Shown piece after piece: positions 16,958-35,996 of a DNA stretch of 64,000 bases (positions are counted from its first letter, which is position 1; each line of letters opens with the position of its first letter). The translations under genes were made by a program, and so were the position numbers. The notes below the pieces were generated by a model, which was given only the letters and a program-made list of their open reading frames with translations, had not been told where the DNA came from and ran no database searches. Source of the stretch: Symbiodinium sp. CCMP2592 (taxonomy: Eukaryota > Sar > Dinophyceae > Suessiales > Symbiodiniaceae); the NCBI GenBank assembly GCA_905221615.1, contig CAJNDT010000979.1:620001-684000 (forward strand), read 5' to 3'.

Positions 16958-17600
16958 AACACCAACCATAGCATTAAGAGTTTAATGTTATGCTTGTTTA
17001 ATCCATTAAGGCAAACCCAGGTTCATTCAATAGTATTCTAACAATTTTGTTAAAATCATACGTTGCAGCACTAACATTATATTTCATTTTGTATTGTATC
17101 CATGTTTTGATTTCTTTTTTGTCTCTACAATACATCATTTCATTAAACAGTTTCTTAAACATATTGTATCTCTTCATAGTTATGTTTGTGATCACGTGTT
17201 TGACTGAATCATAAAGCGGAAACAAACGATCCAAGCTTAAGATAAGCTTTTCAACATCAAATAAACATATCTGATTGGTTTCAAGTTGTTCTTCTATTTC
17301 TTCCTCTTTTTCTATGGTCTTTTCGCATTTCCAACACCGATAAGTAAAGCCATAGATATTATTAATAATATTTTCTGGTAGTGGCAATTCGTAGAAAGTG
17401 CGATAATGATCATGTTTTTTACAATCCCTACATTTACACTTATCCCTCTTTCCCCTACTTTCCCTGATGTAATCTCTAACCTTGATAACATCTAAGAAGT
17501 CATTTATGATTTCATCCTGTTCTTTCCGATTGAACATTTCCCTGTTAATATGTATAGGTGTCATTTCTTTAGGTGTTTTTCTTAAGAAATTTTTATCAAA
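16958..17600. repeat. Left terminal inverted repeat (gene-bearing, diverged)
   Basis: Read on the minus strand, this segment matches the right end from about 35340 to 35940. Identical blocks include GATTGTAAAAAACATGATCATTA and the terminal TTGTTTAATCCATTAA. I estimate roughly three quarters identity by eye. The outermost ~40 bases do not align well. Confidence 0.7.
16998..17564 (-). CDS. Terminal-repeat zinc-ribbon-like protein, left copy
   Basis: 188 codons. The N-terminal part is acidic and basic mixed, then CKCRDCKKHDHY (Cys43, Cys45, Cys48, His51) and CWKC (Cys77, Cys80) make a plausible zinc ribbon. The C-terminal half is helical and ends LMD. Its paralogue at 35384-35920 lies at the other viral end in opposite orientation, and the order CxCxxC ... 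CxxC is conserved in both. The right copy starts at the Met equivalent to Met10 here, because its upstream ATG is ATA; Met10 may be the true start in both. Position suggests a role in end recognition or integration, but I recognise no family. No TCTA box upstream. Confidence 0.75.
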   Translation of the reverse strand: MTPIHINREMFNRKEQDEIINDFLDVIKVRDYIRESRGKRDKCKCRDCKKHDHYRTFYELPLPENIINNIYGFTYRCWKCEKTIEKEEEIEEQLETNQICLFDVEKLILSLDRLFPLYDSVKHVITNITMKRYNMFKKLFNEMMYCRDKKEIKTWIQYKMKYNVSAATYDFNKIVRILLNEPGFALMD

Positions 17601-17607
17601 GGAAAAA

Positions 17608-18519
17608 TTAAACTTTTAATAATTCAAAGCGTAAATAAGCCCTATCATTCCCTGATACATAATAATATTTTTGACCCAATTTTTCGTCAATTCTTTCTAT
17701 GGTATAAACATTTTGCGACCAATTTGATACACGTTCTTTTTCATTGGGTTTCCTCTTCCTAAATATTTTAACTTCATCCCCGACACCTAGATCAGGATAG
17801 ACCCGATTTCGTTTAGCGTTCATGTTTAAGTGGAGTTTAACTTTTAATTCGTTGCTCGGTTTTCTGGCATCCTTTGGGGTGAAACCAGTAGCGGAATGTT
17901 TCATTTTATTGTTATATGTTAATAATATTTCAAAAATATAATCTGGCCACTGAATATTGTTTTTACCCTTTTTCTGATCGGCTTCAACACGACGATATAA
18001 TAAATCTTTGAACGTCCTAATGGCCCTCTCGCTAAAATTTGGATGCGCCCTAGTCCTGTGATGTTCTATGTTCTGTTCCTGTAAATACTTTTGTATTGCC
18101 TCCTTGTTCATTGCTCCCTCGTCGTCGGTATAAATTATTTTTGGTTTCTTCCCCATTTTATGTAAGCATTCAATCATCCCACTCGCTAAATCTTCTTCTT
18201 TCTTACCTTTAATTGCCACGACGTGCATAAACTTATCAAATATATCAATCATTAACATTCCTACTCTAAATTTTTGATCTTCCAAATCATTTATAAAAAA
18301 CAAGTCCATCTGATACTCGTATGCTGAATGGGGGGCGACAAAGCTATTTGAACCGACGGGCTTTCGTTTTTGATCAACATTCTTCCTAAAAAACTCGTTA
18401 ATATCAGACATTGTGATGGTTTTGTCTTTCTCCCGCGCTTCTTCTAAAGTCCGGCTTTTTGAGCCAAACCCAGCGCGATCAAAATAGACATCATTAATAT
18501 TTTTTTGTTTCTCACTCAT
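17608..18519 (-). CDS. Retroviral-type (rve) integrase
   Basis: 303 codons. It catalyses insertion of the element's DNA ends. The RNase-H-fold core has the acidic triad: Asp72 in YQMDLFF, Asp132/133 in IYTDDEG and Glu164 in HPNFSER, with spacing normal for DDE integrases of the Polinton/retrovirus type. An SH3/chromo-like C-terminal region follows (GDEVKIFRKR, NWSQNVYTIERI). I see no HHCC zinc domain at the N-terminus. It reads towards the left end, adjacent to the terminal-repeat gene, as is common in Polintons. No frameshift or stop, so it could be active. A decayed homologous fragment lies outside the element at 15760-16130. No TCTA box upstream, in keeping with early or separate control. 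Confidence 0.95.
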   Translation of the reverse strand: MSEKQKNINDVYFDRAGFGSKSRTLEEAREKDKTITMSDINEFFRKNVDQKRKPVGSNSFVAPHSAYEYQMDLFFINDLEDQKFRVGMLMIDIFDKFMHVVAIKGKKEEDLASGMIECLHKMGKKPKIIYTDDEGAMNKEAIQKYLQEQNIEHHRTRAHPNFSERAIRTFKDLLYRRVEADQKKGKNNIQWPDYIFEILLTYNNKMKHSATGFTPKDARKPSNELKVKLHLNMNAKRNRVYPDLGVGDEVKIFRKRKPNEKERVSNWSQNVYTIERIDEKLGQKYYYVSGNDRAYLRFELLKV

Positions 18520-18563
18520 ATAAAAACAAAAGAAAATAATGATTTAATAACTAAATTAAATCA

Positions 18564-18878
18564 TCATTCGGACATCGGCATTATGATCTTGCAGTTCTTC
18601 ATGTCGTATTTTGCCGAACCGTGCTTGGGCTTCATCGGCTTCTTTGCATTCAATATTTCGGATAGCAATTCATCGTTAATCTCCTCGGGCTTCAGTGTGA
18701 TATTGTTAGCTTGTTCATACTCCTTGATCTTCTTTTTCTGGTTGTGTCTTTGTGCAGATTCCCGTTTCTTTTGCATGTATGCCTCGTCCTTGTTGCGCTT
18801 GTGATAATACAGTCTGTTGTATATGGCGAGTTGCTCTTTGATTTCTTCTATTGTCATATCCTCGGGCTTCTTGCTCAT
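18564..18878 (-). CDS. Small basic helical protein
   Basis: 104 codons, Lys/Glu-rich with a long predicted helix (roughly residues 8-75: IEEIKEQLAIYNRLYYHKRN, then KKRESAQRHNQKKKIKEYE). Could bind DNA or act as a coiled-coil partner. It is the outer member of a leftward pair with integrase and starts divergently from the polymerase gene. No family recognised. Confidence 0.7.
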   Translation of the reverse strand: MSKKPEDMTIEEIKEQLAIYNRLYYHKRNKDEAYMQKKRESAQRHNQKKKIKEYEQANNITLKPEEINDELLSEILNAKKPMKPKHGSAKYDMKNCKIIMPMSE

Positions 18879-18998
18879 ATTACTATACTATATATATATA
18901 TATATTATTTTTTTCTTTAGATGCATTTTCTTTAAAAGAAATCTTCAGAAAAATCCATTTAAAGGGAAAATAAATATATAGTTTAATTATATTAGTAT
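18879..18998. promoter_or_regulatory. Divergent promoter region, probably early
   Basis: The 120-base gap between the leftward small protein/integrase pair and the rightward polymerase. It holds (TA)n, a T-run and the inverted repeat TTCTTTAAAAGAAA near 18937. No TCTA box near either start. Confidence 0.45.
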
Positions 18999-21900
18999 AT
19001 GTCCAAAGCCATTAAGCGTAATACAGAAGCACTACAAACATTTTATGACAACAAGCGAAACCGCATCACCCAAGCCACCAGAACAAAAGTTCAAAATATA
19101 ATTAGCTTATATTCAGATCGTAAGATCGCCCAGTTCACCACAGCAGACAATTTAATCAGGAAACTCACCACCGCAAAAACAGACAAAGAAAAAACTAAAG
19201 CGGAAAACGAATATGATAAAATATACGACAAGCACAAGGATAAAGAACAACTAGGTCAGAGAATGGCACAAGCAAAAGAAGACAACAAACGAACGGGAAG
19301 AACCAACCCAAGAAAACCAAGAAAATATTCAATCAATGTCCATTTATACCAACTGAAGACAGAATCGCACCAAGGATTATCAGTATCTTTCAGAGACAGC
19401 AGGGGTAGGGCATACGTTCCTATTTATATGCGTGATCTATCAGCCAATGTAGCCACAACACCGTGGGTAGAAAACTTGACGAGGAGACGAATATTTAGAG
19501 ACGAGAAGCCCGACACAAAAACATTTCATAGGCTCAAGATGTTATTAATGACCGATGACAGTTTTAAAGCAGATGTCGGTTACGCCGAAGGTTACATTGC
19601 TTGTATTAAAGTTAATTACGCCGAAAGGGTAGATAGCGCCGATGCTTTCAAGCCACAAGACGAAGAACTAACAAACACAGAGAATGTCAGTATGTATCAC
19701 AGATATATTCAGACACCCTTAGATCCACAGTATGAGACCTTTAAGGAAGCCATTAAAGTAGATCATTATGTTAAGAACGAGTGTTGGTTTAACACCTTGA
19801 CGGATTATTATAAGGATACCCTTATGGGAGATCACAAGAGAGAGAAGAACAAACTAACAAAAGAAGCCATCCTAAAGATCATAAATAAGACGGAAGAAGA
19901 TTTTAAAACAAACGGGGCGTCAATAACAGACATGGCGAAGGTATTTGAACATTTTAACTTGCAAGTCAGAATTTATGACGTCTTTGACACTCTGATTTAT
20001 AAGCGCGACCCAATAAAGGGAAACCATCACATCCCAGCCTTATACGCTATAGTGAAGAACAGTCACATCTACACGGCAAGTGATAATGTGAATATGTTGA
20101 AGCAGATGATGCCAAAAAGCAGTAATTATAATATATTTGTTAAGGCATCTTCAGATTATCACATTAACGAGAAGGAAGAGCCGGTGGAATGTAAAATGAT
20201 CACATCCCTAGACGACATCCGGAAATACACAGAACACAGCGAATATACATTGGTGTATAATGGCTACGATCTGTCTCATCTCTTTTATCTTAGCAAACAG
20301 GCCGGGTATGAGCCACAGGTTAGATTTAGTGCAGGGTTCGTATCTGAACTGAATTTTAAATTTAAGATCAAAGATAAAATAATCAAATACAAGGTTAAGA
20401 CCCAGAACTTAGTGAATAATTCTATAGATGGTTCCATCTGCGTGAGAACGGAGCAGATCTACAACAAGATGTCTAAAGCGATGTTTAACTTTAACACCGC
20501 CCTCTTCAAGCCGACCCACAAGTCATATTACAACGAAGTAGATGTAGAGGTTTTTAAGGAGTGTCGCACCATCCCCCCAGCGGGTGAAATAAATAAACAT
20601 TATTATTTATATAACCCTAAGACAGACAAAGACGACAAATACTTTTATACCCCAGAAGTGACTACGGAGATAGATGTAAGAAAAGCTTACACTTCTGCTT
20701 TTAATAAGATCGCCGAGATACCGATATTCACTCAGTTTGATATCTGGAAGCCCTTCAGTGGCACAGTGACAGATTTTCACGATCTAACTCTCTACTTGGT
20801 CAAGCCCACCAAGCGGAGTTTATTTTTCAATAAAGCCTACACTTTAGTATATGGTATGTTTTTAAAGCACTTCGTGAAGCAATGTAAGATTCTTTATTAT
20901 AAGCAACCATCCAGAGTGTATAAGGTGGATTATAGGAAGATCACAGCGGAATTATGGAAGACAGACATCTCTGACAAACCAGCCGAAGACATCAGAATCA
21001 AAAAATTAATAGCCAATGTTAACTTCGGGCTACTTGAGAAGAACACGAACAAAGCCCATAAAAGTTATGCCTTTGATACTTTAAAGGAAGCCTTATATTA
21101 TCAAAACAAGATCGGAGGAAAGATTAACAGAATCTCGGGTATGTATGTTGATGAGATTGAGTTACCTAACGGCGAGACAGACTTCGTAGAAAAGGAGATG
21201 TACAAAAAATATTATTGCTTAACAGTGACTGATAAAGCCACCCTACGAAACGGATATATATACATCAAAGAATTATTATTACAACATCATAACTTTAAAA
21301 TGCACACCGACTACACCAAGCTAACAGAAAATCATATAGGAGTATGGAGTGTTAAAACAGATGCTTTCGTCATTAGGAAGGAGCATTTAAGACGAGCCAA
21401 GAACCTAATAGAGTTTTCAGATCGTATCGGCGGGTGGAGACACGAGAAGAGTAAAAACATAGCAGAACCCACAGAGCAGTGGGCACCAAAAAAGAACGAA
21501 CTGATACCAATTCCTGTAGTTAGCAATGAGACCCGACCCATAGAAAACGAGTGGGACACGGAAAGCATAGCAAAAGATATTGTAACGCATAACCCTATGA
21601 TGATCCGATCTAAATACGCAGGTGGTGGCAAGTCGCATATAGCAAAGCATTTCAGCAAGTTAGGCTATAAAACTCTGTTCGTAGTGCCCCAGAACAGCTT
21701 ATCTCAAAATATTGACGACGATGCGGTAACCACCAATAAGTTTTTTGCCATCCCTGTTGGGGATGGGGAGAAGCTCCCCGAGTTTGACCATAGCAGTTAC
21801 AACTGTATTGTCTTTGATGACATCTATATGAATGGCACACACATATTAAATAGGATCAGAGAGTTTATTAAACGAAACCCGAATAAAATTATCATCGGAG

Positions 21901-22889
21901 CGGGTGATGTCAAACAGCTACCGCCGATTGAAGACCTAACTAATACGAGGAAGCCGGATGAATACGCAGACGAATGTATTGATCAGATCTTCAAGTATAA
22001 TGTTATGCTTACCATATGTAAGAGATTAGGACCACAGGGAGATCCAACAGCAGAAGGCAACAGGAAAATATTAGATATGATGTATGATGATATGTGGCTT
22101 CATAAGTTATCTTTATCCGAGTTTGTTCATAAGTATTTTAACACGACAGACGATATGACGGCATCTCAGAAGAACATAGCCTATACGAATATGAGGTGCT
22201 TAACGGTGTCTAATGCAATCCGAAAGAGTTTGGGTAAAACTAATAAATATGAAGTGGATGAGATCTTAATCTGCAGATTATACAAGAAAACGAACAATGT
22301 CAAATTTAATGTTAATTATAGGTTTAGGATCGTAAGCATATCCAAGAACATAATTAAATTAGAGAACGTCAAGTCCAAACAGCAGTATTTAACGGACATA
22401 GCCACCTTGGATAAACATTTCAGATACGACTACTGCACCACTTGCCATTCCGCGCAAGGGGCTTCAATTGATGGTAAGATCGTTATACACGAGTGGGAGA
22501 AGTCGCACTTAGTAACTCGTGAATGGTTATGGTGTGCATTGACCAGAAGCACCGATTTTAATAATGTCTTGTTCTATGAGAGCGCCGAAGCAGAGAATGA
22601 ACTGAACGAAACAACCTTACATAAATATTGGCTTAACAAGATAAACACCTACAAATTACAAGATCAGAAAGCCAATAGAGAAATAAATGAAAATAAGTAT
22701 ATTAATCCAAGTTGGTTTATGAAGCGAGTGTATAGTCACTGTAATAATTGCGGTTGTAACTTTGAATTTGAGTTTAAGAACGGCTTCTTGACAAGTAACA
22801 TGACAGCCCAGAGGTTAGATAACAGCATCGCGCACGAAAGCGACAACTGCGAAGCTTGGTGTAAGCTTTGTAATTGCAGTGCGAAATAA
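18999..22889 (+). CDS. Family-B DNA polymerase fused to SF1 (Pif1/RecD-type) helicase
   Basis: 1296 codons, the viral replication protein. Order of parts: a basic N-terminus (1-110); a possible cysteine-protease-like domain with NECWFNTL (Cys262) and NSHIY (His356); then a family-B polymerase with motif A EIDVRKAY (Asp559), motif B KKLIANVNFG (669-677) and motif C VKTDAFV (Asp788). A helicase follows with Walker A GGGKS (Lys878), Walker B VFDDIYM (Asp940/941), GDVKQLPP (969-976), CHSAQGAS (His1150, Gln1153) and WCALTRS (Arg1183). The C-terminus holds Cys pairs (1248/1251, 1288/1291), probably zinc-binding. Both catalytic metal-binding Asp residues are present, so the polymerase looks active. 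A fused, inactivated polymerase-helicase is known in transpovirons. The 5' exonuclease motifs are not obvious to me. Confidence 0.93.
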   Translation: MSKAIKRNTEALQTFYDNKRNRITQATRTKVQNIISLYSDRKIAQFTTADNLIRKLTTAKTDKEKTKAENEYDKIYDKHKDKEQLGQRMAQAKEDNKRTGRTNPRKPRKYSINVHLYQLKTESHQGLSVSFRDSRGRAYVPIYMRDLSANVATTPWVENLTRRRIFRDEKPDTKTFHRLKMLLMTDDSFKADVGYAEGYIACIKVNYAERVDSADAFKPQDEELTNTENVSMYHRYIQTPLDPQYETFKEAIKVDHYVKNECWFNTLTDYYKDTLMGDHKREKNKLTKEAILKIINKTEEDFKTNGASITDMAKVFEHFNLQVRIYDVFDTLIYKRDPIKGNHHIPALYAIVKNSHIYTASDNVNMLKQMMPKSSNYNIFVKASSDYHINEKEEPVECKMITSLDDIRKYTEHSEYTLVYNGYDLSHLFYLSKQAGYEPQVRFSAGFVSELNFKFKIKDKIIKYKVKTQNLVNNSIDGSICVRTEQIYNKMSKAMFNFNTALFKPTHKSYYNEVDVEVFKECRTIPPAGEINKHYYLYNPKTDKDDKYFYTPEVTTEIDVRKAYTSAFNKIAEIPIFTQFDIWKPFSGTVTDFHDLTLYLVKPTKRSLFFNKAYTLVYGMFLKHFVKQCKILYYKQPSRVYKVDYRKITAELWKTDISDKPAEDIRIKKLIANVNFGLLEKNTNKAHKSYAFDTLKEALYYQNKIGGKINRISGMYVDEIELPNGETDFVEKEMYKKYYCLTVTDKATLRNGYIYIKELLLQHHNFKMHTDYTKLTENHIGVWSVKTDAFVIRKEHLRRAKNLIEFSDRIGGWRHEKSKNIAEPTEQWAPKKNELIPIPVVSNETRPIENEWDTESIAKDIVTHNPMMIRSKYAGGGKSHIAKHFSKLGYKTLFVVPQNSLSQNIDDDAVTTNKFFAIPVGDGEKLPEFDHSSYNCIVFDDIYMNGTHILNRIREFIKRNPNKIIIGAGDVKQLPPIEDLTNTRKPDEYADECIDQIFKYNVMLTICKRLGPQGDPTAEGNRKILDMMYDDMWLHKLSLSEFVHKYFNTTDDMTASQKNIAYTNMRCLTVSNAIRKSLGKTNKYEVDEILICRLYKKTNNVKFNVNYRFRIVSISKNIIKLENVKSKQQYLTDIATLDKHFRYDYCTTCHSAQGASIDGKIVIHEWEKSHLVTREWLWCALTRSTDFNNVLFYESAEAENELNETTLHKYWLNKINTYKLQDQKANREINENKYINPSWFMKRVYSHCNNCGCNFEFEFKNGFLTSNMTAQRLDNSIAHESDNCEAWCKLCNCSAK

Positions 22890-22917
22890 TTATCAAAATA
22901 TTTTTTAATAATTATTT
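22884..22917. terminator. Shared hairpin between convergent gene ends
   Basis: A perfect 10-bp stem AAATAATTAT / ATAATTATTT with a 14-nt loop. Both the polymerase stop (22887-22889) and the stop of the leftward gene (22912-22914) lie within the stem. This matches the mimivirus-type hairpin rule for 3' end formation. Confidence 0.6.
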
Positions 22918-23205
22918 CATTTTTATGTTCAAATTTGGGAACTTCTTATTGGTATCTCTTACGGATGCTTCAATAGTAGGCTTGTTCCACAAAATATTTT
23001 TAGCCCAGAATCCGGCAGTCGTATGATCCTTCCAATCTTGATTAGGTTTGTGCCTTGCTATATAATTCTTTTTACGATCTTCATCTTTATGCTTGGTAAA
23101 ATCTGAATAGCCAGTAGCACCAAACGAAACTGTCTTTTTATTATCTATTACGGCATCGTATTTCTTACCATCTTTACTTGATTTTTTAATAATTATTTCA
23201 ACCAT
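22912..23205 (-). CDS. Small conserved viral protein (DUF5754-like)
   Basis: 97 codons. The block FGATGYSDFTKHKDEDRK, followed by YIARHKPNQDW and TAGFWAKNILWNKPT, is the signature I recall for a small family (DUF5754) found in large algal viruses. Function unknown. Recognition is from memory. It has a TCTA box 10 nt upstream, so it groups with the late genes. Confidence 0.7.
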   Translation of the reverse strand: MVEIIIKKSSKDGKKYDAVIDNKKTVSFGATGYSDFTKHKDEDRKKNYIARHKPNQDWKDHTTAGFWAKNILWNKPTIEASVRDTNKKFPNLNIKMK

Positions 23206-23225: not shown

Positions 23226-23939
23226 TCATGAGCCCGAACTAATTGTTATCGGTCGGCTACTTCTTGAACTTCTAGAACTAACATACTGAACAGTTCTATT
23301 TGAAGAACTACTTGAAACATTGACAGGTAAACCTTCTTCATCAACATATTCTATAGTTGGGCTTCTTGAACTATTTACACTAACAGGGGCACTTTCAACT
23401 GGTAATAAAACACTTCTACTTGTTGATGATGACGATGATGATGAACTTGATTGTATGGGTGTTTCACTCTTTTTATTGGGCATAGGCTCATTACTTCCTC
23501 TTGCGCTACTAGCGTGGCTTGTTGGCAGTGATCTTGGGAAATCAGCTTCAACTTCCTCAAATAAACTATCAAACAGTCGTCGCATTAATGATTTTTGTTT
23601 TTCTTGCTCCACTGATGCTTCGCTTGTTTGTCGTGAATATTCGCTCTCTGCTTGTTCTTCTACTTCTTCTTTCACACGCTGGTCTTCTATACCACTTTTA
23701 GCACTTTCGCTTTCTGTTGTAGAAGTCTTGTTGAATCTGTCTGTTTGTGTGCCTTTCTCTGGATTTTCATTCATTAATATTGTCTTCTTGTCATACTTAT
23801 CTAAATCAAAATCATCCATATCTAGATCATCTAGTAACATTCCTTGTTGCGTTCGTCTTTCTCTTTCTGGTAATATTTTTAGTCTTCTAGTTTTTGCTTC
23901 CCTTAACATTTCCTCATAAGTGGGTTTCAATCTTAACAT
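23226..23939 (-). CDS. Ser/Glu-rich low-complexity viral protein
   Basis: 237 codons. The N-terminus LRLKPTYEEMLREAK resembles that of the neighbouring 346-aa protein (LRLRPTYDELIGMIE), suggesting a shared docking motif. The middle is acidic and the last ~100 residues contain poly-Ser runs and SSRSSRSS repeats. Probably disordered; a virion or scaffold-associated role is inferred from its late-type TCTA box and place between other late genes. Confidence 0.7.
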   Translation of the reverse strand: MLRLKPTYEEMLREAKTRRLKILPERERRTQQGMLLDDLDMDDFDLDKYDKKTILMNENPEKGTQTDRFNKTSTTESESAKSGIEDQRVKEEVEEQAESEYSRQTSEASVEQEKQKSLMRRLFDSLFEEVEADFPRSLPTSHASSARGSNEPMPNKKSETPIQSSSSSSSSSTSRSVLLPVESAPVSVNSSRSPTIEYVDEEGLPVNVSSSSSNRTVQYVSSRSSRSSRPITISSGS

Positions 23940-23957: not shown

Positions 23958-24998
23958 TTATAACAAACTCATAACGGCACTTTGAGCACCTGCGATTAAC
24001 GCATCCTTTGCGACTTCCTTACCTGCATCTAATAAAGCACTACCTGCGCTTTCAAATGCCTTTCTTATTACTCCTTTACCTTTACCTTTCTTCATATTTC
24101 GCCATTCCTCCATCCTACTTCTTAAAAGTTGGTCATTGATTTCGTCCGTCCATTTACCGGTTTGTATCAATCTCTCAACATAATTCACTAAATAATCTTT
24201 CTTTGTTATTGTTTTACCTTTACCCTTTGTTTTAAGATTTGCCATTTCTTCTTCTTGTTCTGCTGTTAGTTGTATTCCTCTCAAATGTAACTGATACAAT
24301 ATATCATCCGCTGAAACGTCTTTGTTTTTCCATCTGTCTATATTCTCATTATAATCTATGGTTTCTTTATGTTTTCTTGAGATCGGCGGGGGTCTTGTTG
24401 TTTCATCTTCATCTGCAGGTATCAATTCTGGATCATCTTCAAATTCTTCTTCTTCTCCTTCTTCTATATTAACTAAAGGTGGCATATCTTCAAATTCATC
24501 ATTATCCATAACACCGACTGGTAAAGATTGTCTGTGCGCTTCATCTAAATCTACTCTTGCTGATGATGATGACGCCTGTTGTGCTTCTTGTCTTCTTTTA
24601 TTGAACGCTTCCATTTCTGCCTTTATTCTCATGATTTGTTCATCTGACATATTAACATCGTTTGTAGGCGTATCAAAACCATCGGCATTATATGCACCTA
24701 ATGGCGTTCTGCCTCCATAACTTAAAATACCCATTGACGACCCAGTTGCCATTGCCGTTTGTCTCAGTTGTGTCTGTCTTAATTCTTCCTTCACTTTGTC
24801 TTCTTCTTGTTTCTTCAAGCCTAGAAAATCAACATTATCAAATTGACTACCGAACTGATTATTTCTAAACAAGGTAGCCCTTCTGTCAATTACCTGTTCA
24901 ATAGGTGGCCTGTTAGGATCGCCTTGATCTTCAATCATTCCTATCAGTTCATCGTAGGTCGGTCTAAGTCTTAATTCTGATTTCAATGTTTTGATCAT
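23958..24998 (-). CDS. Acidic viral protein with hydrophobic C-terminal helix
   Basis: 346 codons. N-terminal motif LRLRPTYDELIGMIE is shared with the 237-aa neighbour. Residues ~165-210 are strongly acidic (EEGEEEEFEDDPE), followed by a basic KGKGKTITKKD and KKGKGKGVIRK. The last ~30 residues (FESAGSALLDAGKEVAKDAL and on) form an Ala-rich amphipathic helix that could interact with membrane. This layout would suit a minor virion protein; a counterpart of the adenovirus pVI-like membrane-active protein is only a guess. Confidence 0.65.
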   Translation of the reverse strand: MIKTLKSELRLRPTYDELIGMIEDQGDPNRPPIEQVIDRRATLFRNNQFGSQFDNVDFLGLKKQEEDKVKEELRQTQLRQTAMATGSSMGILSYGGRTPLGAYNADGFDTPTNDVNMSDEQIMRIKAEMEAFNKRRQEAQQASSSSARVDLDEAHRQSLPVGVMDNDEFEDMPPLVNIEEGEEEEFEDDPELIPADEDETTRPPPISRKHKETIDYNENIDRWKNKDVSADDILYQLHLRGIQLTAEQEEEMANLKTKGKGKTITKKDYLVNYVERLIQTGKWTDEINDQLLRSRMEEWRNMKKGKGKGVIRKAFESAGSALLDAGKEVAKDALIAGAQSAVMSLL

Positions 24999-27427: not shown

Positions 27428-27441
27428 TTTATATATTATCA

Positions 27442-27445
27442 TAGA
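27442..27445 (-). promoter_or_regulatory. TCTA box upstream of the minor capsid gene
   Basis: 14 nt before the ATG at 27427, followed by TGATAATATATAAA. Confidence 0.6.
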
Positions 27446-28466: not shown

Positions 28467-28470
28467 TCTA
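28467..28470 (+). promoter_or_regulatory. TCTA box upstream of the major capsid gene
   Basis: 17 nt before the start codon, followed by A+T-rich TTAATATATAAC. Confidence 0.6.
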
Positions 28471-28487: not shown

Positions 28488-29075
28488 ATGGAAACATTCG
28501 CGCCTGAAGATATCCTCATTGACAACCTCTCGTTTAAATTGAATAAGGGTAGTTCATACATAGTTGATAGGAGAAGTGTCTCGTTTTTTCCATCAACCTC
28601 TAACGTTTATAAACCGTCATCGGGGGCAAGAGTATTGAAATTTTCATTAAATGGTGAAGATAATACATGGTTAGATCCTCAAAGCGTAAGAATATTTTTT
28701 ACTCTAAATAATAAAGATGGCACTAACTTTAAGAAAATCCGTCCTCTATCATCGCCTTATTCCTTCTTCAGAAAAATGAGAATTATAGCAGGTAGTCAGG
28801 TTGTTGAAGACTTTGACAATTATAACCGTGTTCATCATATGTTTTCTAAACTAATGTCACAAGGAGCAAGACGTGATGAAGCTAATGAAGGCTTCGGATA
28901 TAGATATGATGATGAATTACTAACATTAGTAAATAACGCCGGTAATACTGCTTTGACTTATGAAGTCAATGCTTCAAACTGTCAAGGGTTTTATAATGAA
29001 ATGACTGTCGGATTTAAACCGTTATGTGGTTTATTTTCTCAATTTAAATACTTACCTTTAAAAAAACATGGGTAA
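28488..29075 (+). CDS. Major capsid protein, N-terminal part (frameshifted)
   Basis: 195 codons of a double-jelly-roll-type major capsid protein: an N-terminal FAPEDILIDNLSF, then SYIVDRRSVSFFPSTSNVY and SGARVLKFSLNG, the pattern seen in PLV capsid proteins, followed by SPYSFFRKMRIIAGSQVVED. The frame ends just after FKYLPLKK, at a run of seven A (29060-29066). The rest continues in the +1 frame from codons at 29062 onward. Total coding potential (~490 residues) fits the usual size. One base too many in the A run is the simplest explanation: a mutation, a homopolymer sequencing error, or a slippage site. Confidence 0.88.
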   Translation: METFAPEDILIDNLSFKLNKGSSYIVDRRSVSFFPSTSNVYKPSSGARVLKFSLNGEDNTWLDPQSVRIFFTLNNKDGTNFKKIRPLSSPYSFFRKMRIIAGSQVVEDFDNYNRVHHMFSKLMSQGARRDEANEGFGYRYDDELLTLVNNAGNTALTYEVNASNCQGFYNEMTVGFKPLCGLFSQFKYLPLKKHG

Positions 29076-29958
29076 TTTAACGATTGAATTAGAACTGGTG
29101 ACAAATGCTACTGATTGTATCATTAACCCTAATGATTTTACCACTGCCGGAGCAGACGGAGCATTTCCAACGGCGGATATAGTAAATCGTTTCACAGTAG
29201 CAGAAGCAGGAGATGCAGGTAAGGCCACAAATACATCTATTGACTTTGAGATTTCCAACCCAAGGGTGGTTTGTGATTTGTGCACCTTGGACAATAATTT
29301 AAATAACGAATACAGTAAACATTTGTTAGAATCAAAAGGGCTTCCCATAACGTATACAACTTTTATTACCCAGTCTCAAAATGTTAAGGGTTCAACTGAT
29401 TTTAGCGTTCCTGTTATTCGTTCAGTATCTAAACTTGTTGCCACGTTTGTAACCTTTTACAAGAAATATGACCCACTTGTTGAAGCAAGTCGTCCAAGCA
29501 CTGGTTATGAATACTGTGACAAAGAATTTTGTAGATTTTATCACCCACATCAACAGCACAAAGCATTAGATCAAGGTATTTATGATAAAAACAAAGATTT
29601 AGAGTTCCAAATTCAATTAGGATCCAAACTGTATCCTGAATATCCGTGTAATTCTATTACTCAATGCTTTTATCATTTACGCAAAGCGCTTAATTTACCA
29701 GTGTTTCATCAACATAGTCTGAATATTAACATCAAACAGTATCGCGACCGTCAGTTTATCTTTGCGTTTTCATTTGAAAAAGTTCCCGACAGCTCGTACA
29801 CAGGAATTAATACAAGAGCAGGACAACAAATGTTATTAAGAGTAAAACCAGCAGGTGTAACAATTCCGGCTGCGGAAATGCCAGATACGATGTATATAAC
29901 GATGCTTTCAGAACAGATACTTGAGATAAAAGACTTGGGGCTGAAGGTGTATGATTAA
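29068..29958 (+). CDS. Major capsid protein, C-terminal part (frameshifted)
   Basis: 296 codons in a frame shifted by one relative to the preceding part, overlapping it by 8 bases. The first residues MGNLTIELELV continue a jelly-roll strand, so the internal Met is probably not a true start. Later segments (YPCNSITQCFYHLRKALNLP; RDRQFIFAFSFEKVP) have the strand-rich character of the second jelly roll. No other stop or shift is present, so the gene was intact until recently or is intact apart from an assembly error. Confidence 0.85.
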   Translation: MGNLTIELELVTNATDCIINPNDFTTAGADGAFPTADIVNRFTVAEAGDAGKATNTSIDFEISNPRVVCDLCTLDNNLNNEYSKHLLESKGLPITYTTFITQSQNVKGSTDFSVPVIRSVSKLVATFVTFYKKYDPLVEASRPSTGYEYCDKEFCRFYHPHQQHKALDQGIYDKNKDLEFQIQLGSKLYPEYPCNSITQCFYHLRKALNLPVFHQHSLNINIKQYRDRQFIFAFSFEKVPDSSYTGINTRAGQQMLLRVKPAGVTIPAAEMPDTMYITMLSEQILEIKDLGLKVYD

Positions 29959-29962: not shown

Positions 29963-29989
29963 TCTAATAATAATTTATCTAATTATTAG
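29963..29989 (+). promoter_or_regulatory. TCTA boxes and hairpin between major capsid and fibre genes
   Basis: TCTA occurs at 29963 and 29978; the second is 12 nt before the fibre start. CTAATAAT and ATTATTAG (29964-29989) can pair around it, so the end signal of one gene and the promoter of the next overlap. Confidence 0.6.
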
Positions 29990-29993: not shown

Positions 29994-32459
29994 ATGACAT
30001 TGACATTAAACAATACCAATACTGTATCGGCGAATAGGGTTGTTGTCAATGGAACTGCCCTATCCGATTTATACGCAACAAAAACTTATGTAGATAATGA
30101 AATATCAAATATTAATGTTGGTAGTGGAGGTGGTATAACACAACAGGATTTAGACGATGCCGTAAATCCTATTATATCCGTTAATGATGGTCAAAATTTA
30201 GTAATTACTGATATTACTAATAACTTAGCCAATAATTTTCAGACAACTGCGCAATTGAATGTTAATTTTTACAATAAAACAGAAGTGGATAGCGCTATTG
30301 CTGTTGTTGATGGTAAAGCACTTACTAATTTCAATGCTTTAAATGCTATCAATACTAATTTAACTAATAATTACCAAACTAATACACAACTAGCAACCAA
30401 TTACTATAATAAAAGTGAAATAGATGCAAATAGCTGGATTGATGCAACATCATTAGCACCTTACGCTACAACAGCAACACTAACAGCAAATTACCAAAAC
30501 AACACCCAATTAGCAACCAATTATTACAATAAAACTGAAATAGATTCCAATAATTGGATTGATAATACAGCATTGGCACCTTATGCTACAACAGCAACAC
30601 TAACAGCAAATTATCAAACAAATTCACAATTAGCAACCAATTATTACAACAAAGGAGAAGTAGATACATTAATAGCAGGAGCAGGTGGTGGTGTCAGCAA
30701 TCCAATTGAATTAGTAGATGCTAATACAAGCATTGAAAGATACACGAACGCTACAAAGTCAAATGTTTCATTAGATTTATCAAAAAATGAAACGGCAAGT
30801 GCCATAAGATTAATTAATGGAACTAATGACGACACTGATACAAATACTTATATTGAATGCAATAATACAACAAACGGAACATCTTTTTTCAAACAAGTAT
30901 TTTTAAATGAAGCAGTAATATTTAACAATGATACTGTATTTCTACCAATTTCAACGAATGGCATTCAATTATGGCGTATGTCCAATAACACAAACCCAAC
31001 ACTAAGAATTAGAGACGGAACGGCACAGTGGATATATGTCAATAACAATTTAAGATGCACTAATGCGAATGAAGAAGACGGTAATATTATGATCTTAAAT
31101 GATAACAGTTCTTCTAATAATTCTAACAGGATGAGATTAGGCAGTTTAACAAGTGCCGAAGTAGGGATAGGCAAAGCAAACGAAAGCGGTTATTTTTTAT
31201 CAGTAGGCGGAGCTACGAAAGTAGATAGTTTGGAAGTTGATAATAATATCACAATGAATGGTGATACAATAACTTCAACAAATAATAATGGCATTGAGGT
31301 ATTTAAAAATACGACAGACGCATCGCCAGTTTTACAAGTTAAGAACGCACAAGGATATATTAAAATGCATTCTTTTAATATTAATGCTTACAATACTTCC
31401 AATGATAGCCAGTCATTATTATTATTAAATACAGCAACAGCAGGAGGTGCCGTATATTGTAATAAATTAGGAATTGGAGCAATAGCAGGAGGAGCAACGA
31501 GACTAAATGTAGCAGGAGGAGGAAGTAGTAATTTTAGTGGTGATTGTAGTTTTAATGGTTCTAATAATACATTTCAAAATAATATTTTAATCAGTAGTAG
31601 AGGTAGAATATATCAACAAGCAAACGCGAATTTTTCATTAAACCATATTGCTACGATAGAGCAAAATTTTTGTATTCAATCAAACAGAAGTGTAGACCCG
31701 ACATCATCTGATATATTTATAAATTTAAATAATTCTAATGGTATAACATTAAATAAGCAAACGGTACTTAATGATACAGTTAATACAGTAGGTAAATTAA
31801 CATCAGAAGGAGATTTTGATGTATATATCGGAGCAACAGGAACACCAGAATTTAGAGTATTAGGCAGTAGTGTTAATTTCTTTGAAAAAGCAAGTATTAC
31901 ACATACTCAATTAGCGGGACCAATAGATCAAATATTTTTTAGAAATCCAGATACAAACGGAGATACAATAATAGAAATAGGAACTAAAAATGTTTTGACA
32001 GTTAACGATGGAGGTATTGATGTTATAGGCGATATTAGTTACACAGGTTCAATCGGGCCAAGTTCCGATAAAAGATTAAAAGAAGATATACGCGATTTAG
32101 AAATGGAAAAAGCTGTTGAATTAGTAAAGAACATAAAACCCAAAACATACAAATTTGTTGATAAAGAAAAATACGGTGATCGTTCTTGTTGTGGCTTTAT
32201 TGCTAATGAGATGATGGAATATAAAGGATTTCCGGAAGAATGGAGCAACATAGTTAGAGAAGGAAGAGACGGCTATTTGAAGTTTGACTATTCTATGCTA
32301 ACACCATTGCTTTGGTCTGCTTTACAACATACTCTTCAAGAAAATGAAGACATAAAAGAATTATTTAAAGCATTGAAAAAAGACATGACAACAATGAAAA
32401 GAGAAATAACTAGATTAAAAAACAAAATAAAAGGTAAAGATAAAAGCGATAGTGATTAA
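29994..32459 (+). CDS. Fibre-like protein with C-terminal S74 chaperone domain
   Basis: 821 codons. The N-terminal third has tandem ~40-residue repeats (TNYYNKSEIDANSWID / TNYYNKTEIDSNNWID, TALAPYATTATLTANYQ) encoded by ~120-bp DNA repeats at 30372-30731, typical of trimeric fibre shafts. The middle is Asn/Thr/Ser-rich beta structure. Residues ~688-745 form a peptidase S74 intramolecular chaperone (SSDKRLKEDIRDL; the Ser-Asp site and the following Lys are where self-cleavage occurs in this family), then a GFIANEMMEY block and a C-terminal coiled coil. Likely a host-attachment fibre trimer that self-cleaves. Confidence 0.9.
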   Translation: MTLTLNNTNTVSANRVVVNGTALSDLYATKTYVDNEISNINVGSGGGITQQDLDDAVNPIISVNDGQNLVITDITNNLANNFQTTAQLNVNFYNKTEVDSAIAVVDGKALTNFNALNAINTNLTNNYQTNTQLATNYYNKSEIDANSWIDATSLAPYATTATLTANYQNNTQLATNYYNKTEIDSNNWIDNTALAPYATTATLTANYQTNSQLATNYYNKGEVDTLIAGAGGGVSNPIELVDANTSIERYTNATKSNVSLDLSKNETASAIRLINGTNDDTDTNTYIECNNTTNGTSFFKQVFLNEAVIFNNDTVFLPISTNGIQLWRMSNNTNPTLRIRDGTAQWIYVNNNLRCTNANEEDGNIMILNDNSSSNNSNRMRLGSLTSAEVGIGKANESGYFLSVGGATKVDSLEVDNNITMNGDTITSTNNNGIEVFKNTTDASPVLQVKNAQGYIKMHSFNINAYNTSNDSQSLLLLNTATAGGAVYCNKLGIGAIAGGATRLNVAGGGSSNFSGDCSFNGSNNTFQNNILISSRGRIYQQANANFSLNHIATIEQNFCIQSNRSVDPTSSDIFINLNNSNGITLNKQTVLNDTVNTVGKLTSEGDFDVYIGATGTPEFRVLGSSVNFFEKASITHTQLAGPIDQIFFRNPDTNGDTIIEIGTKNVLTVNDGGIDVIGDISYTGSIGPSSDKRLKEDIRDLEMEKAVELVKNIKPKTYKFVDKEKYGDRSCCGFIANEMMEYKGFPEEWSNIVREGRDGYLKFDYSMLTPLLWSALQHTLQENEDIKELFKALKKDMTTMKREITRLKNKIKGKDKSDSD
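30372..30731 (+). repeat. Three ~120-bp repeats in the fibre gene
   Basis: Units begin near TTACCAAACTAATACACAACT, then recur at ~30492 and ~30612 with few changes; the third is truncated at its end. Recent expansion or recombination within the shaft region is likely. Confidence 0.7.
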
Positions 32460-32483: not shown

Positions 32484-33238
32484 TTAATCTTCTTCTGTTA
32501 ATGTTTTCAAGTATTCCTGGTGTTTGTGTGTTCTTTCGTGTCTTTTCATACCATATTTAATAACTGACGCACCGCAACAACATTCTACTTTAACAGCATA
32601 TTTATTTTTGTTTTTCTCGTAAGTGTTTCTTTGTTGTTCATTTACGTAATCTCTGTTTTTTTCACGATATTCTGCCTGTTTCTGGTTTATTTCTTCTCTG
32701 TGGTCTTCTCTGTATTGCTTTTTCCACAAACGTATTTGTTCATTGTTGCGTTGTTTATACTCTTCTTGTTTCTTTTTGCGTTCTTCTTTATGGTCTTCAA
32801 GCCACTGTTTTATCTCGGCTGTTCAGTGGTACACTTTTTTACTTTCAGGTTTCTGGGTTCCTATTATAAAATAAGAAGCCTAAAAAAGTATATACTTTTT
32901 CCCCGTGGGTTACTGAACAGCCTAGTTATTGTTCTACCTGATACATATTTATTGACACACTCATTGTTTTTAATATGTTCTCCTTCTCTTTTCAATAACT
33001 CTTCTTTTGTGTTTGTTGGATAAAATTCAACTAGTTCAATTTTACAGTTTTCCACACCATATTCATCAAACAAATCAAAGGAACATACCTTATTAATCAA
33101 ACCTTGCTGGTAATATTTAAAAGAACACTTGTGGTGAGCCATTCTCCGACTTAAACTTTCAGTAGTGCTACCAATATAGCACTTATTATAACCAACATCA
33201 ACAATTTTATAAATTTTACCATTCTGATATTTATTCAT
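32484..33238 (-). CDS. GIY-YIG endonuclease interrupted by an intron-like element
   Basis: The N-terminal half (from 33238) has GKIYKI (7-12), CYIGST (20-25), SRRMAHHK and KREGEHI, a GIY-YIG nuclease. The C-terminal half resumes as EIKQWLEDHKEERKKKQEEY, a charged repetitive tail like that of the intact copy at 25368, and ends in a possible Cys2His2 finger (ECCCGASVIKYGMKRHERTH). Between them is a 106-bp inverted-repeat element. If 32819-32913 is removed as a GT-AG intron, the two parts join in one frame of 660 nt (219 codons plus stop). Without splicing the frame ends inside the element. No TCTA box upstream. Confidence 0.8.
32817..32922 (-). mobile_element. Introner-like element inside the viral nuclease gene
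   Basis: Perfect 11-bp terminal inverted repeats GGCTGTTCAGT / ACTGAACAGCC bound a 106-bp A+T-rich insert. On the coding strand a GT lies inside the first repeat (GTTCA|GTAACC) and an AG inside the last (CTGAACAG|CC), giving a 95-nt intron from 32913 to 32819 that keeps the reading frame. This matches the structure described for introner elements in dinoflagellates. No second copy of this exact sequence is in the window, and no clear target duplication is visible. Confidence 0.7.
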
Positions 33239-33523: not shown

Positions 33524-33537
33524 TAATAATATTATTA
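33524..33537. terminator. Palindrome between convergent gene ends
   Basis: TAATAATATTATTA, a perfect 14-bp palindrome lying between the stop at 33517-33519 and the opposing ATPase stop (33535-33537), which it includes. Confidence 0.5.
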
Positions 33538-34296
33538 TTCATCATTCATTATAATCTTTTGGTTTAAGTTTTTGTAAAACATATCTTCTTTATTTGGTTG
33601 CATTAAATCTATAAACAAAAAGCTATGTTTTTCATCCGTTGCCAGTTTATATATTTGTAACAAAGTTGCTTTATCATATAATGCTGACAGTTCCTCTAAT
33701 AAACTATCTAAATCTTTTTGGTTTCTTAATCTAAAAACATACAACTGAGTAACATTTTTTCTTAAGACAGGCGATAAACTCATCCATACTTGTGTCCCGA
33801 CGAAGGTAGAACAATAGTAATGCCTACCCTTACAGTATAATTTCATTAGATGGACTGAATTACGTGCCACCTCTTTTGTATCTGAAAAATCATCCACTAT
33901 CAGTGCAATATGAAACATATTATCATATTTGTTTTTCTTCATATATTGAACGACTTTTTCTTGTGTGTTAATAACTCTATCCATATCTTTTGGGTCATAG
34001 TGATCAAAATACATAGGGTCTTTATCTGTATGTTCTTGCTTCATTTCTTTTTCTATATAATTCTTTACAGCATTCCAATTATCATCCAAAAATATTGTGG
34101 GCGACCATATAAATATTTTCTCAAAGCAACCACGATAGACATCTAATATTAAATTCGTTAATACAACTGTTTTACCAGTTCCAGACGGACCTAACAGCAA
34201 CTGACGCGCGGGTAATTTCCCTACATGTTCACATTTTGACTGCTTACTTTTATATTCTTTGGTTTTGTATGGTTTTATTTCAGGGACGTTACTCAT
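33535..34296 (-). CDS. Genome-packaging ATPase (A32/FtsK-HerA type)
   Basis: 253 codons. Walker A LLGPSGTGKT (Lys42, Thr43), Walker B ALIVDDFSD (Asp135, Asp136), and a downstream VGTQVWMSLSPVLRKNVTQL segment holding the Gln and Arg typical of the poxvirus A32-like packaging ATPases shared by Polintons, PLVs and virophages. It would power DNA entry into preformed capsids. Length is normal for the family. A TCTA box lies 13 nt upstream. It is divergent from a small gene pair at 34336. Confidence 0.92.
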   Translation of the reverse strand: MSNVPEIKPYKTKEYKSKQSKCEHVGKLPARQLLLGPSGTGKTVVLTNLILDVYRGCFEKIFIWSPTIFLDDNWNAVKNYIEKEMKQEHTDKDPMYFDHYDPKDMDRVINTQEKVVQYMKKNKYDNMFHIALIVDDFSDTKEVARNSVHLMKLYCKGRHYYCSTFVGTQVWMSLSPVLRKNVTQLYVFRLRNQKDLDSLLEELSALYDKATLLQIYKLATDEKHSFLFIDLMQPNKEDMFYKNLNQKIIMNDE

Positions 34297-34309
34297 AATT
34301 AATAATACA

Positions 34310-34313
34310 TAGA
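34310..34313 (-). promoter_or_regulatory. TCTA box upstream of the packaging ATPase
   Basis: 13 nt before the start codon; sequence TTTCTATGTATTATTAATT. Confidence 0.6.
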
Positions 34314-34335
34314 AATTATATGATTTAAATATATA

Positions 34336-34503
34336 ATGGAAACATCATATCAGGATTATATTGATATAATAAATGAAGTTGAGAAAATAGAAGAAGTGGT
34401 AATAACAGATAATAAAATTAGAAAGTGTTGTAATAGTTCGTTGGAAGTTCTAAAATGTATTCTTTACTATTTTAAGAATTATAAAAAATCTAAGAAAGTT
34501 TAA
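34336..34503 (+). CDS. Small viral protein, translationally coupled
   Basis: 55 codons beginning METSYQDYIDIINEVEKIEE, with a Cys pair and a Lys-rich end (CILYYFKNYKKSKKV). Its stop TAA shares a base with the ATG of the next gene (TAATG). No family recognised. Confidence 0.55.
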   Translation: METSYQDYIDIINEVEKIEEVVITDNKIRKCCNSSLEVLKCILYYFKNYKKSKKV

Positions 34504-34862
34504 TGAGCGACAATCATAGGGAAACTAATGAAGGTGGCTTCCACCTAAACACAGATGGATTAAACTGTTTGCCCTGCAAATGCAGGAGAAAAACTTTTCA
34601 CAAAGAAACTAAAATAAACAATGAAGGTAAAACAATAATTGAAGATAGAAGCAGTTTTAAGATGGGAAGGGGAATATCCCCCGATGAAAACGCCATATTT
34701 AAAACAAGTTTAACAGATAATGAAGGTGTTGATACAGTGACAACCGGATTTGGATCAAGAAAGCCTACGCCAGAAGAGAGACTAGAAAAAGTGGAGGAGG
34801 ATGTTGAAAGGATAGACAAAGATGTAAATATTTTGAAGAATAATTTAAATATTATGGATTAA
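34503..34862 (+). CDS. Small viral protein with coiled-coil C-terminus
   Basis: 119 codons. Residues 15-30 hold CLPCKCRRK, a possible metal-binding motif. The C-terminal 35 residues (PEERLEKVEEDVERIDKDVN) form a classic heptad coiled coil. It overlaps the preceding stop by one base, suggesting a shared transcript. No function assigned. Confidence 0.6.
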   Translation: MSDNHRETNEGGFHLNTDGLNCLPCKCRRKTFHKETKINNEGKTIIEDRSSFKMGRGISPDENAIFKTSLTDNEGVDTVTTGFGSRKPTPEERLEKVEEDVERIDKDVNILKNNLNIMD

Positions 34863-35059: not shown

Positions 35060-35063
35060 TCTA
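35060..35063 (+). promoter_or_regulatory. TCTA box upstream of the 72-aa gene
   Basis: 16 nt before the start codon; followed by ACATATAATATTAGCA. Confidence 0.6.
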
Positions 35064-35079
35064 ACATATAATATTAGCA

Positions 35080-35298
35080 ATGCCAGTAAGAGTAGATAAG
35101 ATATTAGTTGATTTTGAACCATATACTGAAACAAATAATGTTGTTACTAGGATGTGTTATCGCTGTAAGCAAGTCAAAGACATTGATTGGTTTAAGCGTT
35201 GCTATTGTGCTGGTAAGCATTCTTACTGTTATGTTAAATACATTGCGACTTGTTCTGAATGCTTAGAGAAGTCTGTCAAATACACCACGATCCAGTAA
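35080..35298 (+). CDS. Small Cys-rich zinc-finger-like protein
   Basis: 72 codons. Cys pattern MCYRCKQVKDIDWFKRCYC, then HSYC and TCSEC, suggesting one or two zinc sites of treble-clef or HNH-recruit type. It carries a late-type TCTA box. No family recognised. Confidence 0.6.
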   Translation: MPVRVDKILVDFEPYTETNNVVTRMCYRCKQVKDIDWFKRCYCAGKHSYCYVKYIATCSECLEKSVKYTTIQ

Positions 35299-35323
35299 AT
35301 CTTAAGAAAATAATATTTCTGAG

Positions 35324-35351
35324 GAAAGTGACTTCTGAGGAAAGTGACTTA
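35324..35351. repeat. Tandem duplication CTGAGGAAAGTGACTT
   Basis: Two adjacent copies just inside the right terminal repeat. Confidence 0.7.
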
Positions 35352-35996
35352 ACGAAATAACACCTATATATATTAACAGGGACATGTTCAATCAAAGAGA
35401 ACAGGATGAAATAACAGATAACTTCTTGGATGGTGTCAAGGTTCACGATTACCTCAGGGAACTCAAGGAAGAGCGACGGATTTGTAAATGCAGGGATTGT
35501 AAAAAACATGATCATTATTCCACTCTGTATGAATTGTCACTACCAGAAAATATTATTGATAATATTTACGGCTTTGCTTATTGTTGCCGTAGTTGTCAAA
35601 AACGCCAGTTCAAGAAGGAGAGGATAGAGGGAATTATCAGACGTAATATACTACATGTATATGATGTAGATAGACTTATTTTCTCAACTAAACATGACTT
35701 TCCCATTTACGACAGGGTTAAAAATAGTCTGTTCAAGAAATTGTCAACAAAAAGATATACAGTGTTCAAATGGATATATGAGGATTGGATGGATATTAAA
35801 AATATTAATATTCGTAGTAAGATAAACGATTTTGGTTTTAATCCAGATGTATTCATTAGGGACTTTAATAAAATCGTTGGAACTCTTATGAATAAACCTG
35901 AGTTTGTCTTAATGGATTAAACAACCTAACCAACATAGTTATAATGTAATTATAATACATAAGCAGTTATATATTATAATTACAGTGTAGTTACAA
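35340..35996. repeat. Right terminal inverted repeat (gene-bearing, diverged)
   Basis: Inverted counterpart of the left end. Alignment runs from near AACACCTATATATATTAACA to TTAATGGATTAAACAA. The last ~55 bases (35941-35996) are A+T-rich with ATAATGTAATTATAA / TTATAATTACAGTGTA inverted symmetry. Confidence 0.7.
35384..35920 (+). CDS. Terminal-repeat zinc-ribbon-like protein, right copy
   Basis: 178 codons, paralogue of the left-end gene (16998-17564) in opposite orientation, both reading outward. Shared motifs: CKCRDCKKHDHY, LPENII-NIYGF-Y, DFNKIV and the C-terminal LMD. The second Cys pair is shifted (CCRSC). The upstream ATG of the left copy is ATA here. Substitutions concentrate in the middle, while the zinc-like core is kept, so both copies were under constraint after duplication. 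Function unknown; a terminal or integration role is inferred only from position. Confidence 0.75.
   Translation: MFNQREQDEITDNFLDGVKVHDYLRELKEERRICKCRDCKKHDHYSTLYELSLPENIIDNIYGFAYCCRSCQKRQFKKERIEGIIRRNILHVYDVDRLIFSTKHDFPIYDRVKNSLFKKLSTKRYTVFKWIYEDWMDIKNINIRSKINDFGFNPDVFIRDFNKIVGTLMNKPEFVLMD

Follow-up and report, generated by a model that had tools for sequence, protein, structure and literature searches.

A probable endogenous Polinton-like virus of mosaic structure in a dinoflagellate genome

The DNA analysed here is a 64,000-nucleotide stretch, positions 620001-684000, of contig CAJNDT010000979.1 (the window), in which a first-pass annotation had placed a near-complete endogenous Polinton-like virus (PLV) at positions 16958-35996. 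The G+C content of this 19.0-kb block is 33.8% versus 47.7% in its flanks, and the listed open reading frames (ORFs) span 87.6% of it. Fifteen ATG-initiated ORFs of at least 150 amino acids lie within the block, compared with three in the 17.0-kb flank and ten in the 28.0-kb flank; 200 mononucleotide shuffles yielded 0.015 such ORFs on average and never more than one. The viral assignment was borne out gene by gene, as the block encodes a retrovirus-type (rve) integrase, a replicase, an A32-type packaging ATPase, a major capsid protein (MCP), a penton-like protein, a fibre with an S74 domain, a lipase-like protein and Tlr6F.

The integrase (17608..18519, minus strand; 303 amino acids) matches Pfam rve with an E-value of 5.8e-6, at 26.9 bits versus a curated cut-off of 32.6, and matches the NCBIfam IS481 transposase family under its cut-off (E 3.8e-9). 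It is 35% identical to the integrase of a metagenomic PLV contig, IMGVR_UViG_3300028392_002905 (L001), whose virion module is collinear with that of the window. The plus-strand replicase (18999..22889; 1296 amino acids) combines an OTU-like protease motif, an exonuclease-less protein-primed DNA polymerase B (pPolB) palm, a superfamily 1 helicase (S1H) and C-terminal cysteines. It was aligned with 75 relatives of 1240-1420 amino acids, taken from 120 listed of the 207 found, and a second alignment held 13 sequences. Residues conserved in these alignments were C262 and H356 (OTU-like), D559, K669/N673/G677, K786/D788/A789, G875-S879 and T1182-R1183. The palm shows K-x-D-A in place of D-T-D, followed by Walker A, Walker B and the later superfamily 1 helicase motifs; the relatives also gave Pfam helicase matches. 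By eye, no exonuclease motifs were noticed on the N-terminal side of the palm, where the OTU motif lies, and the helicase occupies the C-terminus. With the OTU domain, the palm and the lack of an exonuclease judged from motifs in this way, the protein is a Tlr1-like pPolB-S1H replicase and not the full, exonuclease-bearing pPolB of Mavericks/Polintons sensu stricto.

The same layout has been described for Tlr1-like pPolB-S1H proteins, including Tlr1 of Tetrahymena, which share the OTU-like domain, the exonuclease-less palm, the missing first Asp of motif C, the C-terminal helicase and the rve integrase (PMC11071308). In comparison with the proteins described there, no homing endonuclease was seen fused to the window replicase, and the GIY-YIG genes are separate. 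OmPLV of Oxyrrhis marina is likewise a dinoflagellate PLV with a polymerase-helicase fusion, an ATPase and GIY-YIG; however, in the available text on it (PMC12721341), the helicase stands before a full pPolB that keeps its exonuclease, the recombinase is of the tyrosine type and target duplications are absent, whereas the window has the order OTU, palm, C-terminal helicase, together with an rve integrase. The window element thus falls outside the OmPLV lineage. Beside the replicase lies the gene for Tlr6F (DUF5754; 22912..23205, minus strand; 97 amino acids; PF19058 E 4.9e-19), which the first-pass annotation had not named. The protein is called Tlr6f in PMC12220804 and is conserved, according to that paper, in PLVs as well as in giant viruses and phages. 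The Tlr6F gene also matches hypothetical proteins in 68 Flavobacterium phage records, covering 41% of its length at 63% identity among the 20 listed.

The virion genes follow. The packaging ATPase (33535..34296, minus strand; 253 amino acids) is of the A32/FtsK type found in PLVs (PF04665 E 2.6e-10). The penton-like minor capsid protein (26582..27442, minus strand; 286 amino acids), whose identity is assigned from sequence alone, is encoded collinearly with its L001 counterpart (34% identity, E 5e-47) and shows 24% identity in an alignment with the proteins of contigs L003 and L004. The lipase-like protein (27528..28169, plus strand; 213 amino acids) carries an HSLG motif and is 30% identical to its L001 homolog (E 1e-23); hydrolase matches for this family were found only in the L001 homolog and were weak and under cut-off. 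The fibre (29994..32459, plus strand; 821 amino acids) ends in an S74 chaperone domain (PF13884 E 2.3e-11) and has a module breakpoint near residue 410. An in-frame 120-bp tandem repeat at 30369-30665 likely forms a variable shaft. Three further minus-strand genes belong to the virion module: u346 (23958..24998; 346 amino acids), which occupies the position of a 195-amino-acid L001 gene without a significant sequence match (E 0.75); u106 (25009..25329; 106 amino acids; 124-amino-acid L001 homolog, E 4e-4); and the zinc-finger-like u191 (25969..26544; 191 amino acids; 212-amino-acid L001 homolog, E 6e-5).

The MCP frame is split at a seven-A run (29060..29066, plus strand) into an N-terminal fragment (28488..29075; 195 amino acids; 43% identity to the L001 MCP) and a C-terminal fragment (29068..29958; 296 amino acids; 319 homologs, the best at 94%), both on the plus strand. 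Its relatives P0001 (489 amino acids) and P0003 (478 amino acids) are single frames. A double jelly-roll fold was predicted for P0001, which is 94% identical over the C-terminal fragment, from an alignment of 52 rows with a predicted local distance difference test score (pLDDT) of 68; a model from 19 close relatives reached a pLDDT of 49 and was discarded. Sequence searches of the PDB with the MCP profile and the integrase gave nothing credible. Among the 120 MCP clusters listed, nine (P0007, P0036, P0037, P0049, P0051, P0058, P0063, P0077 and P0114) begin at the same methionine just past the A-run site. Breaks near this run therefore seem to recur across the family, and sequencing error and decay are indistinguishable from these data; many such stops have been described as assembly artefacts (PMC10120064).

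The ends of the element were located by comparison with a second copy, at C369:304687-326239 (21,553 bp) of another contig of the assembly. This comparison places the window's ends at 14216 and 36287, enclosing 22,072 bp, so both copies are bounded by terminal inverted repeats and lie within the 14-40 kb range of PLVs. The C369 repeats are 352 bp long with three differences (99.1% identical), end in AGTTAGGG...CCCTAACT and have AACAG immediately outside both ends, an exact 5-bp target-site duplication. In the window, the left arm (14216..14501, plus strand) is homologous to both C369 arms and differs at 18 of 285 aligned sites from the conserved segment of the right arm (36003..36287, minus strand); the C369 arm reaches inward to the equivalent of 35935. 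The window arms end in AGTTAGAG...CTCTAACT, flanked by a degenerate duplication, TATAA (14211..14215) and TATAC (36288..36292), matching at four of five positions. Random flank pairs match at all five positions with a chance of 0.13% and at four or more with a chance of 1.7%, figures that are optimistic as the end phase was picked by eye. An rve integrase thus occurs together with a target-site duplication in both copies. The duplication is 5 bp in this element, and 6 bp is given as typical in PMC12220804.

The left arm has a G+C content of 42%, above that of the viral genes, and telomere-like motifs resembling those at the repeat edge are common in the flanks (89 exact copies, versus one in the block). 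On these grounds, the 291-bp repeat at 14216 and 36003 could be regarded as an ordinary host repeat, with 16958 and 35996 as the true ends. We consider this quite unlikely, as the same sequence stands inverted at both ends of the C369 copy (352 bp, 99.1% identity), where it adjoins viral terminal DNA and has the exact duplication just outside, and it was not found in the other pieces L036, L037, L038, L039 and L041. The first-pass borders of 16958 and 35996 therefore have to be moved outward: since the second copy shows ends corresponding to 14216 and 36287, position 16958 is only the inner edge of a GC-rich stretch. On either side, the viral DNA is bordered by TTTAGGG/CCCTAAA motifs, which are inverted relative to each other (window 16940-16957 and 35998-36020; both copies, L036 and L034).

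This GC-rich (50%) stretch of 2.45 kb (14502..16957) contains no recognised viral gene, gave no informative match in a Pfam search and ends in a 133-bp tandem repeat. It looks foreign and is probably a later insertion or a replacement of the left subterminal part; in C369, the equivalent place is taken by DNA of lower G+C content, about 1.1 kb long, that gives GIY-YIG matches. The stretch includes a 277-amino-acid ORF (14545-15378) as well as 23-bp and 133-bp tandem repeats. A subterminal GIY-YIG-matching segment is common to C369 and a further copy on contig C4035 (L036 1411-2200, L040 1-288, L039 61-810), with 93% identity over 506 bases and 85% over 251; no such segment was seen in the window copy. 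Just inside the viral ends lie two paralogous terminal genes with 48% amino acid identity, one on the left (16998..17564, minus strand; 188 amino acids, with a cysteine-rich centre) and one on the right (35384..35920, plus strand; 178 amino acids). Both are present in C369, and the pair shows 1.06 synonymous (dS) and 0.38 nonsynonymous (dN) substitutions per site (dN/dS 0.35) over 174 codons, which suggests that both genes have been kept by selection; their products probably bind DNA, judging from the cysteine-rich centre. The alternative that this pair (67% DNA identity) represents decayed terminal repeats was rejected because of the dN/dS ratio and because the C369 copy puts the true repeats farther out.

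The arms have diverged by 0.0632 differences per site (6.3%) in the window copy versus 0.0085 (0.9%) in C369, so the window copy would be about seven times older if the arms were identical at insertion and not homogenised afterwards. The window copy is an ageing one, with its MCP frameshifted, its left subterminal part probably displaced or interrupted by the 2.45-kb GC-rich stretch and its terminal repeats 6.3% diverged. Consequently, the description of the element as near-complete and nearly all intact holds for the readability of most genes, but not for the capsid gene, the left subterminal part or the drifted repeats.

Because the composition changes abruptly near 16958 and 35996, we also considered an assembly chimera, in which a free virus contig had been joined to host DNA. 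This is highly improbable, given that terminal repeats lie in GC-richer DNA at both sides, host repeats are present in both flanks, and a sister copy on another contig, whose arms are 99% identical, is bordered by an exact 5-bp duplication. The host is supported as a peridinin dinoflagellate, in agreement with the first-pass annotation. A profile search of the window's own 1.098-Gb assembly (5383 contigs) gave 143 matches to the peridinin-chlorophyll protein (PF02429), the strongest at E 2.9e-61 and many arranged in tandem, versus none in 14 control genomes; this family is not known outside dinoflagellates. Among the 120 replicase relatives listed, three are Skav gene models (P0276, P0311 and P0350), which fall into two separate clades in a 92-row tree built with a quick method. 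Skav stands for Symbiodinium kawagutii in PMC5177918, and gene identifiers of that form appear in a dinoflagellate review (PMC12787238). The flanks themselves were less informative: searches for the spliced-leader motif, for Rfam families and for tRNAs gave no matches, and 150 of 186 flank ORFs searched against Pfam yielded three families (E 7.6e-4 to 8.2e-3), none informative. Polarella glacialis is an unlikely host, since perfect (TTG)n runs of at least 12 bases are absent from the 45 kb of flanks and (TTG)n is reported to cover 18.5-19.1% of its assemblies (PMC7245778). One flank also contains an 863-bp AGT trinucleotide array (47427-48289). Taken together, an endogenous PLV in a dinoflagellate chromosome, with ends as located here and a mosaic structure, is very likely.

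The mosaic structure emerges from the comparison of copies. The ATPase DNA has at least ten matches in the assembly, the window's own included: C369 carries a copy at 99% identity and C4035 one at 94%, and the other seven matches are partial and more distant. Between the window and C369, protein identity runs from the ATPase (98.8%) through u119 (94%), the right terminal protein (93%), the C-terminal half of the fibre (93%), the replicase (93%), Tlr6F (87%), the left terminal protein (83%), u104 (77%) and u237 (64%) to the integrase (50-63%), but is much lower for the N-terminal half of the fibre (47%), the MCP (30-36%), u346 (32%) and the lipase (28%). No match to the penton was found in the pieces of C369 that were compared. 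The MCP of that copy is a single open frame of 530 amino acids, of which the best four matches among the 120 MCPs listed are 31-33% identical and the L001 protein 30%. In C4035, stops interrupt the matches to the ATPase, the fibre, the lipase, the MCP and the penton, with identities to the window of 27-34% for the MCP and 72-78% for the fibre. One chassis thus carries two or more capsid lineages, and a breakpoint falls within the fibre gene; the difference between the copies is best explained by recombination, and the family seems to trade whole capsid-gene sets between sibling copies. Exchange between replication and capsid genes in cryptophyte PLVs has been deduced from discordant trees (PMC12220804), whereas here the exchange is visible between copies of one genome.

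The remaining genes of the block are u104 (18564..18878, minus strand; 104 amino acids), u237 (23226..23939, minus strand; 237 amino acids), u119 (34503..34862, plus strand; 119 amino acids), a GIY-YIG homing endonuclease (25368..25946, minus strand; 192 amino acids; PHROG homing endonuclease E 4.2e-10, NCBIfam grpIintron_endo E 1.5e-10 but under cut-off) and a short-form GIY-YIG endonuclease (32864..33238, minus strand; 124 amino acids; PF01541 E 1.1e-4).

A further feature was noticed on reading the upstream stretches, where many genes are closely preceded by ATCTAA. In 9 of the 18 window genes, the TCTA begins 14-21 bases before the ATG (Tlr6F, u237, u346, u106, u191, MCP, fibre, ATPase and u119), at 28467..28470 (21 bases before the MCP start), 29978-29981 and 34489-34492 on the plus strand, and at 23216-23219, 23952-23955, 25010-25013, 25345-25348, 26558-26561 and 34310-34313 on the minus strand. 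Dinucleotide-preserving shuffles gave a mean of 1.4 genes and a maximum of six, and none of 2000 reached nine, with the position window chosen after the data had been seen; for TCTA in any window, none of 400 shuffles reached nine (maximum seven). The background is 36 of 691 non-start ATGs in the window. In C369, TCTA lies at -13 to -24 in 7 of the 18 genes examined (u119, ATPase, fibre, MCP, x126, u346 and Tlr6F), the background being 40 of 666 ATGs that are not starts (binomial P 5e-5); over both copies, the motif stands 14-23 bases before the start codon. The C369 count omits the integrase, which is cut by a piece border, and scores x216 as negative though it lies near a piece border that may hide its true start. 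The motif is kept before the C369 MCP and u346 although these proteins are only about one-third identical to those of the window, and it also precedes the MCP and fibre frames of C4035. Within the window, six of eight virion genes carry it, compared with none of the seven genes for integration, replication and homing or at the termini (one-sided exact P 0.0056), in a grouping that was made after the motif had been seen and that omits u237, Tlr6F and u119, all three TCTA-bearing.

Several observations weigh against reading TCTA as a giant-virus-type promoter. When any 4-mer containing G or C in any 12-base window is allowed, 4 of 400 shuffles reach at least nine genes, or about 1% without a prior hypothesis. 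The motif window overlaps a neighbouring ORF in 4 of the 18 genes, three of which are among the nine with TCTA. The penton and lipase genes have no TCTA, and u237 has it in the window but not in C369. The flanking modules of both copies share recent ancestry, so only the diverged genes count as independent. Among free relatives, TCTA precedes 1 of 13 genes in L001 and 3 of 14 in L003. Moreover, the early giant-virus motif named in PMC13196603 (AAAATTGA or shorter forms) does not occur within 100 bases upstream of the 18 window genes. The corresponding TCTA counts for L004 and L005 are 0 of 5 and 2 of 7 genes.

TCTA in AT-rich surroundings is described as the promoter motif of mavirus and type 4 endogenous mavirus-like elements (EMALEs) of Cafeteria and as the late motif of the giant virus CroV, and as absent from the other EMALE types (PMC8547959). 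The upstream stretches of the window element resemble these. Mavirus, whose giant helper virus is CroV, is a virophage, with a different capsid and polymerase lineage. A limited search of open-licence papers found no report of a TCTA promoter motif in a PLV. For the PLV 'Moe' of Chrysochromulina parva, both dependence on a giant virus and inhibition of it have been shown; it is, however, a haptophyte virus, and the main text of the report (PMC12945077) does not contain the word promoter, its TCTA letters being part of a qPCR probe. In the window element, TCTA is circumstantial and would be the only sign of an anti-giant-virus role or a virophage-like lifestyle.

These features fit a mechanism in which the rve integrase would insert a linear genome with inverted terminal repeats, generating the 5-bp target duplication. 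From their gene content, active relatives would replicate and package themselves with their own protein-primed polymerase-helicase and virion set. Because many virion-side genes carry the TCTA late-type promoter core, the likeliest trigger would be a co-infecting CroV-like giant virus, acting through its transcription machinery as it does for mavirus; that a giant virus triggers this PLV is a serious possibility that falls somewhat short of probable. Capsid modules would be exchanged among sister copies by recombination, with one breakpoint inside the fibre gene. More tentatively, and on balance doubtfully, the copies may form a resident PLV guild, triggered by giant viruses, whose ends, replicase, ATPase and fibre tip make up a common chassis for interchangeable capsid modules, all under a CroV/mavirus-type late promoter, and in which recombination in the fibre couples a new capsid anchor to an old receptor-binding tip.

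Alternatively, the PLV may move only within the genome as a self-synthesising transposon, with the virion genes as remnants and TCTA as a host or element promoter unrelated to giant viruses. The multi-copy family, the broken capsid gene of the window copy, the stops in the C4035 copy and the interpretation of OmPLV of Oxyrrhis in this way (PMC12721341) are consistent with this alternative. On the other hand, the uninterrupted 530-amino-acid MCP frame in C369 suggests selection on capsid genes until recently, and TCTA is found at virion genes but is missing from those for integration and replication; a purely transposon-like life is possible but rather unlikely.

Scans of viral contigs using protein alignments returned one collinear PLV, L001, and three distant ones; scans with single window proteins, with an MCP alignment lacking L001 and with a replicase alignment returned none, and two later scans gave the same contigs only. 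L001 differs from the window in having a 1286-amino-acid polymerase with no BLASTP match to the window replicase (E <= 1). In prokaryote genomes, 16 loci were recovered, each of them a partial match to the helicase, and no PLV was seen.

Even an intact PLV in this host type would not be new, as dinoflagellate PLVs are already in print (PMC10120064, PMC12721341). Polarella glacialis has 2,535 PLV capsid genes, and the endogenous PLVs of the 'Dino group' defined there (Bellas 2023, PMC10120064) are alike in having a dinoflagellate host and many copies; the endogenous viral elements of that study often show low-GC insertions, double jelly-roll capsid genes, terminal repeats and an integrase. The likeness is one of description, and the available text mentions neither a capsid-module swap nor a TCTA motif for this group. 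An element of Symbiodinium (Fugacium) kawagutii has been published together with OmPLV (PMC12721341), and PLV contigs have been reported from Karenia brevis lysates (PMC13037468). The presence of a PLV in a dinoflagellate is thus not new; the capsid-module swap and the TCTA promoter signature go beyond it.

Dinoflagellates form blooms and coral symbioses, and the viruses infecting them are little known. Copies in the same genome have replicase, ATPase and fibre tip in common but differ in the capsid, which shows how a provirus family could exchange its coat and retain both its replication engine and its receptor tip. Should the TCTA signal prove true, the virion genes would be poised to answer a giant virus of the CroV type; this would point to the type of helper, and the idea of an anti-giant-virus provirus would become testable in culture.

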